DNA of 64,000 nt, taken from the IMG/VR virus record IMGVR_UViG_3300037087_000046, positions 1 through 64,000 of that record; one strand, given 5' to 3'. The position numbers and the translations under genes are program-made. The notes below the pieces were generated by a model. It had not been told where the DNA came from. It saw only the letters and a list, made by a program, of their open reading frames with translations, and did not search any database. Each line of letters begins with the position of its first letter. Within the stretch, counting starts at the first letter, position 1. Source of the stretch: a virus. Below, in pieces: positions 12,436 to 52,320 of this stretch.

Positions 12436-12512
12436 ACAGTGTAATAATCGGCTATATTTTAGCAGGTATTATTTTGTTCTGGATGTTAAAGATGGGTACG
12501 TATAAGGCATGA
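12432..12512 (+). CDS. 26-residue single-span membrane peptide
   Basis: Starts at an ATGA overlap with the previous gene. Residues 4-20 form one hydrophobic helix with a short Lys-containing tail. It is the last gene before the terminator. Function is unknown; tiny membrane peptides of this kind are common in phage operons. Confidence 0.55.
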   Translation: MNSVIIGYILAGIILFWMLKMGTYKA

Positions 12513-12551
12513 AAAAACCCACGAGACACTAAGTGTCTCGTGGGACTTTTT
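12512..12551. terminator. Bidirectional intrinsic terminator between convergent operons
   Basis: A perfect 12-bp stem (12518-12529 with 12533-12544) and a 3-base loop, with T5 on the + side and A6 on the left that serves as a T-run for the - strand. It lies between the + tail operon and the - replication operon. Confidence 0.9.
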
Positions 12552-15175: not shown

Positions 15176-15351
15176 TTAGGCACCTCCGGCAGTGGCATCC
15201 AATGTGTAACTTGATGAATAATATCATCATTACATACCCACATTGTATATTCTCCCTCATAGCATGTAGCAACACATACTACCCCGTTTGCTGTAACGAG
15301 TAGAGGTATATCATACGGGGGGCTTCCTTGTAGCACGCTAATCCACTTCAT
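15172..15351 (-). CDS. DUF551-type small protein
   Basis: A 59-residue protein with the DUF551 frame: it opens WISV and closes VTHWMPLPEVP. Two further DUF551-type genes occur at 60631-60813 and 60905-61084. These proteins are common in phages and prophages and have no known function. Its stop overlaps the next ATG. Confidence 0.75.
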   Translation of the reverse strand: MKWISVLQGSPPYDIPLLVTANGVVCVATCYEGEYTMWVCNDDIIHQVTHWMPLPEVPK

Positions 15352-15817
15352 GGAAGTATCCTTTCAACCCACATGCCCGAAGAATCTGGGCATTCTCTTT
15401 ACCAAATGCAACAAGCACCGAAGGTGCTCCTGCATTGTTAGGATAAATTGTACCATCACCCTTGCAAAATTGCAAGCGTTTTTCAAGAAAAAGAATACCG
15501 CTCATATTTGGGAACACTATCTCTTGGAACATCTTGGTGTCGGTACGTGCAAAGATAAGGGCTATACCATTACCGTGTGCAGCCAACTTCTTAACCCACT
15601 TAATAGTTTCTTTACCATAAGGGGGATTAAGCCATACACGCCCGTCCCAATCCATAAGAAGACCGTCATCGTCCTTTGTGAAGTGCCGCGTTGCTGTCTT
15701 CCAAGGCCGATTGATTGGACTGCAAGGGTCTAAATCGAAGCATCCCAACGCTTCGATAATATACTTTGGCGTAAGCCACTCTTCACTTCCATGCTGGTTC
15801 TGGTCAAAATTAGACAT
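15338..15817 (-). CDS. dam: Phage DNA N-6-adenine methyltransferase (Dam family)
   Basis: A 159-residue protein with the catalytic NPPY motif in WLNPPYGKETI and the compact layout of the phage Dam family (PF05869). It should transfer methyl from S-adenosylmethionine to adenine, often within GATC. Both 257-bp inverted repeats in this window contain five GATC sites each, which are possible targets. Methylation could also protect against host restriction. Target specificity cannot be read from the sequence. Confidence 0.8.
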   Translation of the reverse strand: MSNFDQNQHGSEEWLTPKYIIEALGCFDLDPCSPINRPWKTATRHFTKDDDGLLMDWDGRVWLNPPYGKETIKWVKKLAAHGNGIALIFARTDTKMFQEIVFPNMSGILFLEKRLQFCKGDGTIYPNNAGAPSVLVAFGKENAQILRACGLKGYFHEVD

Positions 15818-15820
15818 ACT

Positions 15821-17242
15821 TTATCCATTCATCTTAATAGAGTAATTTTTATTTCCATCCGTATAGTACACCTTGCCACTTATGTTTGACAGCGGCATGG
15901 AAGAATCCAGCGGACAATTTGGTATTTCCTTTACCTTGGCGTTATCCATGAATACTTCCATTGTATCTCCATCCATCAACACACACGGACCATTAGGAAC
16001 CTTGGTGAAGTTTACTATCTTGTCATCTGTCTCTACAACGCGGCAGGTATATGTAGTATATTTTTTATCAAACACACAAACGAACCTGTAGTATTTTCCT
16101 GCTTTCTCAGCAATGACTACTAAGATTGTATCCTCACCCTTAACATCAATAACCCTGTGCCCGAATACTTCTGGTATCTCCTTCAACCAGATAGAACCCT
16201 GTTCGTATGGAATCGCAAAATACGGTCTACCTAATAGGTCTTGATAAACTACCCCATCAAAAATCTTTGGGTTAAGCAAAGAGCAGAGTTTTTTACCAGG
16301 TTGTTCAAGAAGGATGTTACTCACAGTGTAATACCTGCCATCTCTAACCATTGTGTTTTTAGGTAGTTTAACCTTCTTCACCATAGGACATTCAACAATA
16401 GTGAAGGCTGAATTAGAGGGAGTAAACAATACTGTCTGGGCTGTAATAGCCCCCATTCCTACAGGCGGTTCTAACCTATCACCATGTCTAAACACTCTTT
16501 TAAACCATTCCAGTTGGTTACTCGGTATGACTGTCAGTGGGCGGCAGGATGGTGGAAGTTTAACCCCCGAGTCAAAAACAGACGCATTATTCTGCATCCG
16601 CTTCAACCATTCTTTTGGTGCATATTTAGGGTGTGCGCCCTTGTAGGGATGTATGCCAATGTAAAGTTGAAAAGCAATAACCGCCAAAGAGAACCAATCA
16701 CTTTTCTCAGTAAACGTGGTCGCGCTAAAGTCTTTAACTGAATCCATCAAAGCAGTTGCCTTAAATGATTTTGTTTGGTAACTATCCACATCAATGAAGT
16801 ATGGGATATTGTTTGAAATAATCAAATTCATTTCATTCAAATCAACAACCAGTACACCTGCTGAATGGATACTTTTAACTGTTTCAATGAGTTCTGTTAC
16901 CATCTTTACAGCGTCTTTATCTGTGAATCCAATAGTGTCTCTATACCCCTTAGTGAAGTATTTACACATGGGCTGGGCATCTTGCACAAACTTAGTAACA
17001 TACCCAATAGGTACACCCTGTTGGTCTTTAACTATTTTGATTGGGGCTATCACATTTTGTTTTTTAATTAGGGAGAGTTCAGTAATCTTTTTGGTAGGTA
17101 GCATCTTTCGTGGATCATGGTAAACTTTTACCGCCATATCGTTGTTTAACTTGTATACAGTCCCCTCCCCGCCCGATGCCACATAGTTAGAGTCAGTTAA
17201 TGAACATTCACCATACCCATCAATTTGAACTTTCATTATCAC
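15821..17242 (-). CDS. Serine/threonine-type protein kinase of a TerY-P-like triad
   Basis: A 473-residue protein. The kinase domain has a glycine loop GGEGTVY (residues 24-30), AVK with the ATP Lys at 39, a catalytic-loop variant VVDLNEMN instead of HRDxxxxN, and DVD in place of DFG. These variants fit the divergent kinases of TerY-P systems. After about residue 260 comes a beta-rich region of unknown role. Its start overlaps the PP2C gene by 23 bp, and PP2C overlaps no more than the end of the vWA gene, so the three are co-expressed. Confidence 0.8.
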   Translation of the reverse strand: MIMKVQIDGYGECSLTDSNYVASGGEGTVYKLNNDMAVKVYHDPRKMLPTKKITELSLIKKQNVIAPIKIVKDQQGVPIGYVTKFVQDAQPMCKYFTKGYRDTIGFTDKDAVKMVTELIETVKSIHSAGVLVVDLNEMNLIISNNIPYFIDVDSYQTKSFKATALMDSVKDFSATTFTEKSDWFSLAVIAFQLYIGIHPYKGAHPKYAPKEWLKRMQNNASVFDSGVKLPPSCRPLTVIPSNQLEWFKRVFRHGDRLEPPVGMGAITAQTVLFTPSNSAFTIVECPMVKKVKLPKNTMVRDGRYYTVSNILLEQPGKKLCSLLNPKIFDGVVYQDLLGRPYFAIPYEQGSIWLKEIPEVFGHRVIDVKGEDTILVVIAEKAGKYYRFVCVFDKKYTTYTCRVVETDDKIVNFTKVPNGPCVLMDGDTMEVFMDNAKVKEIPNCPLDSSMPLSNISGKVYYTDGNKNYSIKMNG

Positions 17243-17963
17243 TCCTAACTATCGCTGCCATTGAAAAATCATCTTTATGGTGTATACCATTTGTGGTCAA
17301 ATATCGCTTCAACAGGTTAAGTTTCTTTTGTAAGAACACCCCCTTAATAGAGGGGAAACTAATAACCTCATCCCCCATGTCTACTACTTCATCACCCTTG
17401 AAAAATTGTTGTATTCCATCCGACATAATAACAATCTTCTGTGGGTACTCAGCATACAGTGCAATCGGGGTTCTTATTTCACCGATGCTCTTTGAAAACC
17501 CTTGGCACAGTTGCTTTTCATAAGCAGCATCTCTATTTGGGTCTAACTTGTAACTCAAATAGTAGGGGGCGTTTGATGAATACTGGATGTCATGGTGTAC
17601 CCCGTCAATAGAGATTACCCCATCTCCCCAAGCATAAACAACACCCATGCTGTCTGTAGCCATAGCCACTATCAAAGTAGCATCAAATACTGTGCTTGGT
17701 AAATTAAGGGGTAGCATACTACTCCTTAATTTACCAAGTAGTAATTCCTCGAAGTCCCAAATATTAAAACAGATTCCATTTTCACTGATTACTTGGATGG
17801 CACATAGGGTAAGGAGTCTTGCACCAATGTCAGTGTTCTTGGATGAACTACAACCATCACTAACAATAGCATAATGTACCCCGTTTATAACCCCGTTAGA
17901 TGAATAATCTTCACATACTTTGTGTGTTGACCCAATTGTGAAAAAGGAATCTGTGTTGTACAT
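17220..17963 (-). CDS. PP2C-family protein phosphatase of the same triad
   Basis: From the ATG at 17963 it is 247 residues; a GTG at 17993 is an alternative start. PP2C motifs are present in order: CEDYS, VSDGCSSSKNTDIGA (metal Asp and Gly), ATLIVA, WGDG, MSDGIQQF and HKDDFSMAAI (late metal Asp pair). It should remove phosphate from Ser/Thr, probably reversing the adjacent kinase. It lies directly between the vWA and kinase genes. Confidence 0.85.
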   Translation of the reverse strand: MYNTDSFFTIGSTHKVCEDYSSNGVINGVHYAIVSDGCSSSKNTDIGARLLTLCAIQVISENGICFNIWDFEELLLGKLRSSMLPLNLPSTVFDATLIVAMATDSMGVVYAWGDGVISIDGVHHDIQYSSNAPYYLSYKLDPNRDAAYEKQLCQGFSKSIGEIRTPIALYAEYPQKIVIMSDGIQQFFKGDEVVDMGDEVISFPSIKGVFLQKKLNLLKRYLTTNGIHHKDDFSMAAIVRSDNESSN

Positions 17964-17964
17964 G

Positions 17965-18696
17965 TTAGAATGTAAGGGGCTGGCTTGCCCCACTCCCCAA
18001 GGATTGACTTACACTGCTGATAGAGCGGCTTACAAAGGAAGCGAGTTTAGCAAGTTTGTTTTTGGATGCCTCACCAATATCAACAAACTGGTCAAGCCCG
18101 GCACTGTTTTTGAAGGCTTCAAGACCACGACTCAATATAGCCTCCCCGCCAGTAACCCCGATCAGTACGACAGTTACTGATTCAACTCCCTCACTCTTTT
18201 TAGCATCGTCAAGAAGGGCTTTGATTTTGTAGGGAGCAAAATTGGATGAGTTATCTTCCCCATCCGTGATAACAAAGATAACCGCGTTGCAATTTATACC
18301 ACTCTTTGGAAATGTGGAACCATACGTCAGTGTAGCATCAATAGAGGTATGTGTAGCATCATACAACGCCGTCATTCCACCAATACCCTTGAACACATCA
18401 TCATAATCATTCTGGTCGATACTGTTCAACATCTTAAACCCGTGGAACTCTGTCAGTTTGTTATTAAACAACACCGTTCGGAGAAGCAGATTTTCAGCAC
18501 GGGGGGATTTTTTACAAGCATCAATAATTTCTTTCAAACACGAAATCATCTCAGTCTTAAAAGAATCTACTGACCCTGATTGGTCTTGAATGATAGAAAC
18601 CAAGGTATACTCACTGGCTTCAAGGTCAGTTGCAGGGGTGGTGTTAAAGTGATACCCGTGGGGGGTATTCATAACTTCATCAGTAATGCGGGGCAT
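17965..18696 (-). CDS. vWA-domain protein (TerY-like) of the triad
   Basis: The start at 18696 has AAGGAG upstream, giving 243 residues. A von Willebrand A domain with an intact metal-ion site: DQSGSV (DxSxS), the Thr in GGMTALYD and the Asp in VITDGEDNS. In the TerY-P triad this protein is the metal-binding partner of a kinase and a PP2C phosphatase, associated with tellurium-resistance and stress or defence islands. Here the order vWA, PP2C, kinase is complete in a phage. Confidence 0.85.
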   Translation of the reverse strand: MPRITDEVMNTPHGYHFNTTPATDLEASEYTLVSIIQDQSGSVDSFKTEMISCLKEIIDACKKSPRAENLLLRTVLFNNKLTEFHGFKMLNSIDQNDYDDVFKGIGGMTALYDATHTSIDATLTYGSTFPKSGINCNAVIFVITDGEDNSSNFAPYKIKALLDDAKKSEGVESVTVVLIGVTGGEAILSRGLEAFKNSAGLDQFVDIGEASKNKLAKLASFVSRSISSVSQSLGSGASQPLTF

Positions 18697-24092: not shown

Positions 24093-24122
24093 TTGACAGC
24101 AAACAGTCTAACGTGTTAGACT
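24093..24122 (+). promoter_or_regulatory. Rightward promoter with operator palindrome
   Basis: TTGACA at 24093-24098, an 18-bp spacer and TAGACT at 24117-24122. The palindrome AGTCTAACGTGTTAGACT (24105-24122) covers the spacer and the whole -10, so a bound protein would block initiation. Confidence 0.8.
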
Positions 24123-24213: not shown

Positions 24214-24243
24214 TTGACAACAGGGAAGATTTTGTGGTAGACT
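24214..24243 (+). promoter_or_regulatory. Second rightward promoter, without palindrome
   Basis: TTGACA at 24214-24219, 18 bp, TAGACT at 24238-24243. It shares spacing and -10 with the operator-bearing promoters but has no palindrome, so it may be constitutive. Confidence 0.7.
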
Positions 24244-45307: not shown

Positions 45308-45575
45308 TGTTGGAAAGCCACAGTGGAATCTTCTACCGTGGAATGCAGTAAAAGAAGTTGTTGAGGTACTTACGCTGGGGGCGACTAAATATGCTCCCAA
45401 TAATTGGCAACATGTCAGACCCATTTCCCGATATAAGGATGCTGCGTTCAGACATTTTACCTCCTATTGTATGGGAGAGAAACTTGATAACGAAACAGGT
45501 AAATCCCACGTAGCCCACGCTATTGCATGTCTACTGTTTTTACTGTGGTTTGAATTGGGGGAAATAAATGATTAA
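45285..45575 (+). CDS. dATP/dGTP diphosphohydrolase-like (DUF5664) protein
   Basis: A 96-residue protein with KFDVGKPQWNLLPW, GATKYAPNNW and RHFTSYCMGEKLDNETG then HVAHAIACLLFLLW, the DUF5664 pattern linked to dATP/dGTP diphosphohydrolases. Conserved His and acidic residues would bind metal. It may adjust dNTP pools, and in some phages it is tied to modified-base synthesis. Confidence 0.75.
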   Translation: MEQGTKFDVGKPQWNLLPWNAVKEVVEVLTLGATKYAPNNWQHVRPISRYKDAAFRHFTSYCMGEKLDNETGKSHVAHAIACLLFLLWFELGEIND

Positions 45576-46116
45576 GATTGGGTTTGTAGGCGGACCAAGT
45601 GCTGGGAAGACGTCCTTGAGTAGGTTATTGTCTACACAATTCATTGGGAAATATAAAACCGAACTGGTGTCGGAGTATGCGCGTGAATGGATAAACCTAC
45701 ACGGACAAACAACCAAAATGGAACACCAGTTACATTTTTTCAACCAGCAATGTCTGCGGGAGAAGTCCCTAATTACTGATAAAGTACAATACCTTATCAC
45801 CGACTCCCCCGTTCATTTGGGAATTGTATATGCCATGTTGTATAATGACAACCCCACTTTGTTAGATGGGCTACTGCAACAGGGATTTGATTATACCTAT
45901 GATTATATCTTTCATTTGCCACCAAATAAGACACCAGAGAATGATGGTACACGCCAAAATTTACAACTCACCAAAACATGGCAGGAAGAGTTTGATACCT
46001 TGGTTAGCACAGTTTTCAGTTATTTGTATAAACCAACGAAGTATGTTAAAATTACCGCTGTTGACAAAACTACACAATTGACAGAGGTTCTAAGGGAGAT
46101 CGGTTTTGGAAATTAA
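45568..46116 (+). CDS. P-loop AAA-type ATPase / kinase (NadR-like fold)
   Basis: A 182-residue protein with Walker A GGPSAGKTSL at residues 8-17, EYAREW and TDSPVHLG segments and a late lid region, as in AAA_28/NadR-type nucleoside kinases. It may phosphorylate nucleosides or nicotinamide riboside. It precedes nrdD and overlaps it by 11 bases. Confidence 0.65.
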   Translation: MIKIGFVGGPSAGKTSLSRLLSTQFIGKYKTELVSEYAREWINLHGQTTKMEHQLHFFNQQCLREKSLITDKVQYLITDSPVHLGIVYAMLYNDNPTLLDGLLQQGFDYTYDYIFHLPPNKTPENDGTRQNLQLTKTWQEEFDTLVSTVFSYLYKPTKYVKITAVDKTTQLTEVLREIGFGN

Positions 46117-51537: not shown

Positions 51538-52320
51538 ATGAAATTTAATTACTTAAAACTTGATGGGAAGATTTATTTTAAGCCAGAGGGGCAGTATTCT
51601 GAAGTACCCTCATTCCTGTTGTTTGATGGGGTAGTACCGGGAAACACATACTTGTCTTATTGGAAAGTGGTGAATGCTATCCCCCAGCGCGTATGTAAGA
51701 AACCCTACACCAAAAGCAAATATATGCTTAAAGAAGGTATGCCCGAAGGTATGGATAAGGAATTGCGTGGTCTGCCAGATGATTCCCTACAACCTTGTTA
51801 TGATAAGGTGTCATGGGAAGTACCTGAAGAAGATATTGAGGTTGAATGGGTTTGCCTGGGTGAATACAATCTCACGCCCTGTCAGCCCTTAAAGAACTTG
51901 CAAACGCCCACCCCCGTTAAACTTACCGTTCCAGAAATTGCCCACCAAGCATTCCCCTGTAGTCTGGACAGTCAGGATAGTTTCAACGTCATCCGTGAAT
52001 ATGTCAAACAGAACATTGACCTTAAATGGGCTTCAATCACCTCAGACTATGATTTCTGCCTGACAGTGAAAAAAGTTATACCCTATTATGAGCCTACCAA
52101 GAAACTGGTTAATAACCGTGCCACTACCATTTTTGAGTGTGCTCCCAAAACACATAAGGGGGTACATGAGGGTTATACCCAGTGCCCATCATTTAGTGGA
52201 AATACCCACCAAGAGTTGCTGGATAACATTGATAACTACCTACAAGGGTTAATCAAAATAATTAACGAGCCACTGGTTGATTGCCCACACTGCAAAGGAA
52301 CTGGCGTATGCAACGTATAA
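51538..52320 (+). CDS. Hypothetical protein upstream of the radical SAM gene
   Basis: A 260-residue protein. The middle has a proline-rich stretch, then VPEIAHQAFPCSLD. It ends in a zinc-type CPHCKGTGVC. The last 13 bases overlap the radical SAM gene. No family assigned. Confidence 0.55.
   Translation: MKFNYLKLDGKIYFKPEGQYSEVPSFLLFDGVVPGNTYLSYWKVVNAIPQRVCKKPYTKSKYMLKEGMPEGMDKELRGLPDDSLQPCYDKVSWEVPEEDIEVEWVCLGEYNLTPCQPLKNLQTPTPVKLTVPEIAHQAFPCSLDSQDSFNVIREYVKQNIDLKWASITSDYDFCLTVKKVIPYYEPTKKLVNNRATTIFECAPKTHKGVHEGYTQCPSFSGNTHQELLDNIDNYLQGLIKIINEPLVDCPHCKGTGVCNV

Follow-up and report, generated by a model that had tools for sequence, protein, structure and literature searches.

Does a set of vWA, PP2C and protein kinase genes inside a phage genome represent a TerY-P module, or does it serve a different purpose? 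This question was raised by a stretch of 64,000 nucleotides (positions 1 to 64,000 of the IMG/VR virus record IMGVR_UViG_3300037087_000046; hereafter the window), in which the original prediction had recognized a complete triad of TerY-P type, a module linked to tellurite resistance and defence. The TerY-P triad reportedly goes back to a description by Anantharaman et al. in 2012.

Bases 12-110 of the 82,834-base (82.8 kb) record are an exact copy of its last 99 bases, and the genome is probably complete because both record ends share this repeat. The repeat is preceded by an 11-base inverted stub at the record start, explaining why IMG/VR lists the record as linear although the genome probably closes. 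Genes for terminase, portal, major head and tape-measure proteins were found in the record outside the window, and those for DNA polymerase, helicase and primase inside it, bearing out the proposed phage origin of the locus. By its profile match, a gene elsewhere in the window encodes Gad1, a recognized counter-defence protein (Table 1). The window also contains a strong terminator-like hairpin, bidirectional and placed where convergent gene blocks meet, and three near-identical promoter-like sites flanking a divergent boundary near 24 kb, which may be phage-specific promoters.

The triad has a fourth member

The vWA, PP2C and kinase genes were all confirmed on the minus strand, with each product scoring above its curated Pfam cut-off. 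They had been described as overlapping, which is true for the PP2C and kinase genes (by 17 bp, the only overlapping pair among the three) but not for the vWA and PP2C genes, which are separated by 1 bp. While the triad is intact as proposed, it is not the whole unit because a fourth gene, encoding a nicotinamidase, lies immediately upstream of the vWA gene with a gap of 1 bp. A gene for a Dam-type adenine methyltransferase, codirectional with the cassette, is located 3 bp downstream of the kinase gene. The PP2C coding sequence also contains the top-listed inverted repeat in the window, a hairpin (RNA fold z-score −5.7) with a possible role as regulatory RNA element or origin-like structure.

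Table 1. Location of the cassette genes and of other features in the window
Feature	Position	Strand	Evidence or description
Nicotinamidase, PncA-like cysteine hydrolase, 268 aa	18698..19504	-	NCBIfam and PDB profile matches, conserved residues
TerY-like vWA protein, 243 aa	17965..18696	-	Pfam VWA, 5e-6
PP2C-type Ser/Thr phosphatase, 247 aa	17220..17963	-	Pfam PP2C_2, 2.8e-11
Ser/Thr protein kinase with predicted C-terminal beta-propeller-like domain, 471 aa	15821..17236	-	Pfam Pkinase, 1.8e-9
Dam-type adenine methyltransferase	15338-15817	-	
Hairpin within PP2C coding sequence	17695-17738		20 bp, 4-nt loop, one mismatch
Terminator-like hairpin	12512-12550		
Promoter-like sites, extended −10	24093-24122, 24214-24243	+	TTGAC[AT] ... 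TAGACT, TG before
Promoter-like site, extended −10	23819-23790	-	TTGAC[AT] ... TAGACT, TG before
Small P-loop kinase	45568-46116	+	Thymidylate kinases (9.6e-14); kinase half of NadR-type phage proteins (1.7e-11)
Gad1 (Gabija anti-defence protein)	51538-52320	+	PF25705, E = 2.4e-44

Single-protein viral scans returned almost no relatives, and profiles built from four or five phage sequences were used instead. Among annotated phages, relatives of at least three members are limited to four records, namely the huge phages LR745208, LR756511 and LR756500 and one gut fragment; all four contain the four genes in identical order, with the kinase gene of the gut fragment being cut by the fragment end. 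In IMG/VR, scanning with the kinase gave 74 loci, and the nicotinamidase was present on 73 of these contigs (71 within the flank and two elsewhere on the contig), the remaining locus beginning at a contig end. Reciprocally, the nicotinamidase scan gave 130 relatives, and the 80 that were kept have vWA, PP2C and kinase genes within the flank in 77, 73 and 72 cases, respectively, with several exceptions located at contig ends. Removal of near-duplicates left 99 complete cassettes, located on phage or MAG contigs, for comparison. In 99/99 sets the four genes are codirectional, and the order nicotinamidase-vWA-PP2C-kinase is kept in 93. Given that six sets deviate (one of them an ORF-start artefact), a strict operon order is not obligatory. 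Correlations between the distances of the four families (Spearman 0.40-0.59 vs a permutation maximum of 0.19) fit co-inherited genes, although shared phage ancestry alone could also produce them. Thus, the triad does exist in other phages, and the nicotinamidase belongs to the conserved unit.

Key catalytic residues of the cassette proteins are conserved at 97-100% among the 99 homologues. The vWA metal site (MIDAS D38, S42, T109 and D145) and the PP2C motifs (G37 and the metal residues D19, D36, D182, D231 and D232), both predicted to be intact, are kept in 99/99. The kinase keeps K37 (97/99), D132 (99/99), N137 (97/99) and D149 (99/99) and has divergent loops, as had been described, with the HRD His/Arg missing from the catalytic loop and DFG replaced by DVD. 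The conserved residues suggest that the kinase is catalytically intact, while the divergent loops count somewhat against its activity.

The best curated model for the 268-residue protein is the NCBIfam nicotinamidase/pyrazinamidase (E 1.9e-9), with its score of 37.6 bits staying below the equivalog cut-off of 174 bits. The family profile matches yeast nicotinamidase (PDB 2h0r, 8e-17) and M. tuberculosis PncA (3pl1), and its aspartate, WPPHC and GxAxxHC motifs align with those of the PDB nicotinamidases. Residues D10, F15, D53, H55, W119, H122, K156, A202 and C206 are found in 99/99 homologues and H62 in 95/99. From knowledge of PncA, we take D10, K156 and C206 to be the catalytic triad, D53, H55 and H122 to be metal ligands, and F15 and W119 to be the substrate clamp. 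The protein thus resembles PncA and Pnc1 in its D-K-C triad, Asp/His metal residues, F/W stacking pair and GxA...HC loop, but differs from them in its length, its low equivalog score and a long insert between the metal motif and WPPHC. Together, these features argue for a divergent nicotinamidase subfamily, whose substrate could differ given the insert and the score well below the cut-off.

Comparison with TerY-P and other known systems

According to PMC11090510, TerY-P combines a TerY-like vWA protein and a PP2C with a kinase that ends in a zinc ribbon or, in antiphage versions, in an OB-fold. The cassette contains the same three components in the same order, and its profiles match those of a Rhizobium triad (kinase 7e-21, PP2C 1e-10 and vWA 6.7e-8). 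The vWA protein also possesses a C-terminal Ser-rich tail (SRSISSVSQS...LTF, with S223, S225, S227 and S230 kept in 95-98 of the 99 homologues), a candidate phospho-site that is shared with canonical TerY-like proteins. By contrast, the C-terminus of the kinase is different. Structure prediction, proposed earlier as a check and run for the kinase, gave an AlphaFold2 model of the window protein with a pLDDT of 92.5 and the LRRK2 kinase-WD40 structure as the top Foldseek match. The C-terminal domain of the window kinase is about 90 aa shorter than that of its relatives. The full-length relative L048 was predicted (pLDDT 94) to consist of a kinase domain followed by an all-beta domain that spans about 280 residues and is far too large for an OB-fold, and its structure matches include WD-repeat structures. 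The models indicate a beta-propeller-like domain at the C-terminus of the cassette kinases. A zinc-ribbon C4 pattern, kept wide enough to catch the Sphingomonas TerY-P kinase L212 as a positive control, was found in this control but in 0/99 cassette kinases. Furthermore, a long branch with 99% support separates the cassette kinases, together with a Variovorax one, from the TerY-P and YegI kinases in the kinase-domain tree. Despite the same parts, the cassette is therefore not to be filed as TerY-P because it lacks two defining features. The classification as TerY-P type held for the homology of the components and their intact catalytic residues but not for the kinase architecture and branch, and TerY-P-like is the description that the sequences favour.

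An antiphage activity has been reported for TerY-P-like modules with OB-fold kinases (PMC11090510), and this, with the homology to canonical triads, would agree with the cassette being a TerY-P module for defence or superinfection exclusion in which the nicotinamidase is an effector or a passenger. We consider this unlikely, however, because of the missing zinc ribbon and the separate kinase branch, and because no annotated nicotinamidase adjoins the canonical triads examined. The neighbourhood also speaks against the suggested link to tellurite resistance or defence, with PncB, NadE, NadD, Nudix and NADAR as the recurrent cassette neighbours and no linkage to Ter, restriction or DNA-processing genes being found. 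With PADLOC and NCBIfam, neither the kinase nor PP2C matched a specific model, and the weak matches to PD-T4-6, MkoA and lanthionine-synthetase kinases were rejected as generic kinase similarity.

Two further systems were compared. E. coli YegL-PphC-YegI is likewise a vWA, PP2C and kinase set on one strand, and the cassette kinase profile matches YegI with 66 bits, but YegI groups with the TerY-P kinases, has another C-terminus, and has no nicotinamidase nearby. NARP1 and NadV/NadM share with the cassette phage-encoded rebuilding of NAD+ from nicotinamide by modules common to bacteria and phages (PMC12774641, PMC9503650). NARP1 uses other chemistry, with the ADP-ribose pyrophosphate-forming enzyme Adps (PMC12774641), whereas the cassette would deamidate nicotinamide to nicotinic acid (PncA-PncB-NadD-NadE), and the kinase/phosphatase/vWA module is absent from the descriptions of both systems (PMC12774641, PMC9503650). 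Surveys of jumbo phages and of viral NAD+ genes report Ter genes, NadV, NadM and NadR, and no isochorismatase/nicotinamidase or PP2C was found in their texts (PMC7824862, PMC9503650). No work joining phage, nicotinamidase and triad was found, and the four-gene cassette is undescribed relative to the literature searched, which covered few preprints and subscription papers.

NAD+ genes around phage and cellular cassettes

Nicotinamidase converts nicotinamide, the leftover of NAD+ cleavage, to nicotinic acid, which enters the Preiss-Handler route via PncB, NadD and NadE. Clustering of the genes flanking the cassettes placed nicotinate phosphoribosyltransferase first and NAD synthetase next, with NadD, Nudix and NADAR genes also being frequent, and flank representatives of PncB, NadD and NadE exceeded their NCBIfam cut-offs. 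A search of 50 cassette-bearing records, the window's phage included, found PncB-type matches in 31 (29 over cut-off), NAD synthase (NadE) in 35 and CTP_transf_like, a broad family that is NadD-type, in 35. For comparison, one phage PncB query matched 13 of 50,697 phage records, a background rate that is not matched for genome size, and two of the 13 are among the three huge cassette phages. Random placement would put PncB within 15 kb of the cassette in 4.0 of its 31 records and NadE in 4.5 of its 35, but the observed counts were 18 and 24, respectively; neither observed count was reached in 20,000 simulations. A Nampt/NadV-type transferase (NF006629) exceeded the cut-off in 0/50 records, which fits the deamidating route, and PF04095 matches were rejected as NadV because their best NCBIfam models are PncB types. 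Judged by these matches, most large cassette relatives carry PncB-NadD-NadE. The record of the window's phage, by contrast, contains no PncB, NadD or NadE, and PF04095 is also absent, so its salvage would need host enzymes. The window does encode a small P-loop kinase adjoining the NrdD gene, a possible second NAD-related gene of this phage. NAD synthetase and a macro-domain-like gene lie near the cassette in the huge phages LR756500 (L006, 13855-14715) and LR745208 (L004, 1814-2365). The 735 kb phage LR756501/LR756503 has PncB at 430260-431429 and no cassette member by tblastn.

The cassette is also present in cellular genomes. A genome scan revealed 37 loci, many of them on short MAG contigs that may be of phage origin, and four (L177, L180, L190 and L193) sit among cellular genes with all four cassette genes present. 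The idea that all MAG loci are mis-binned phage was rejected for these four, L190 being on a 1.36-Mb contig, because of their cellular gene surroundings. NrtR is an ADP-ribose-responsive repressor of NAD genes, and an NrtR-type repressor adjoins the cassette in two Acidobacteria contigs and one Chromatiales contig, as identified by family search in the latter and in one of the Acidobacteria, and by similar sequence in the other. A PncB-like gene lies upstream of the cassette in the Chromatiales contig, while in a 1.36-Mb Armatimonadetes (Armatimonadota) contig the cassette is followed directly by NAD synthetase and has PRPP synthetase on its upstream side. On plasmid 2 of Variovorax sp. SRS16 (L163, 8061-18762), a PP2C gene and a cassette-type kinase gene are followed by pncB, AlkB, NADAR and NAD synthase genes, with no vWA or nicotinamidase in this stretch; the 801-kb element may be of phage ancestry. 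A link to NAD synthesis thus recurs around this kinase branch, in cells as well as in phages. The window kinase falls within a clade of 17 phage kinases, and the interleaving of phage and MAG sequences in the tree suggests repeated transfer.

Some phages use kinases for host takeover, and the kinase, intact by sequence, might phosphorylate host proteins under regulation by PP2C and vWA while the nicotinamidase is co-transcribed for unrelated reasons. This is improbable to much the same degree as TerY-P defence because the nicotinamidase is the best-conserved member of the cassette, with the window copy being 60% identical to its nearest relatives as opposed to 50%, 43% and 38% for vWA, kinase and PP2C, respectively, and because the occurrence of the unit beside NrtR in bacterial chromosomes argues for a cellular NAD role common to the phage copies. 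Slightly less credible still is a hydrolase for another amide or ester, with the triad in general phage stress or assembly signalling and only an indirect NAD link: the long insert and low equivalog scores would allow it, but the catalytic, metal and substrate-stacking positions of nicotinamidases are invariant and proximity to PncB/NadE and NrtR is strong.

Proposed function

Given that the first gene of the cassette encodes a nicotinamide-recycling enzyme, control of the cell's NAD supply, rather than of tellurite resistance, is the most likely task of the phage kinase and phosphatase, and we regard the cassette as probably a phage four-gene unit for phosphorylation-controlled NAD+ salvage. 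In the proposed pathway, nicotinamide released by NAD+-cleaving enzymes would be converted to nicotinic acid by the nicotinamidase, and nicotinic acid would then enter PncB-NadD-NadE. Most large relatives encode these enzymes themselves, while the window's phage would rely on those of its host. Between them, the propeller kinase and PP2C would add and remove phosphate on a component of this pathway, with the nicotinamidase or a vWA-held protein as the most likely target. The vWA protein may serve as a scaffold with its Ser-rich tail as a candidate phosphorylation site, and the propeller as a possible sensor or docking platform. Regulation of the nicotinamidase by the triad is what we infer from this arrangement. 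A drop in NAD+, such as replication or the onset of NAD+-depleting immunity might bring about, would turn salvage on.

Depleting NAD+ is one of the chief means by which bacterial immunity acts against phages. The cassette might counter such immunity, and this counter-defence role is attractive, with the window's phage also carrying Gad1, but NAD+ supply for replication would fit equally. More tentatively, and with a little less than even confidence, we propose that the propeller kinase, PP2C and vWA form a switch that senses NAD+ status and adjusts nicotinamidase activity through reversible phosphorylation, in bacterial NrtR-type loci as well as in many huge phages, where it would help to outlast NAD+-depleting immunity.

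For the described phage routes of NAD+ rebuilding, NARP1 and NadV/NadM, no kinase/phosphatase control has been reported (PMC12774641, PMC9503650). If the proposed function is true, the huge-phage cassette would join deamidating salvage to a kinase/phosphatase switch, and a TerY-P-like triad would gain a function together with a directly testable substrate in a system of four small genes. Finally, the phage module is linked to bacterial NrtR loci, suggesting post-translational control of NAD synthesis in bacteria.
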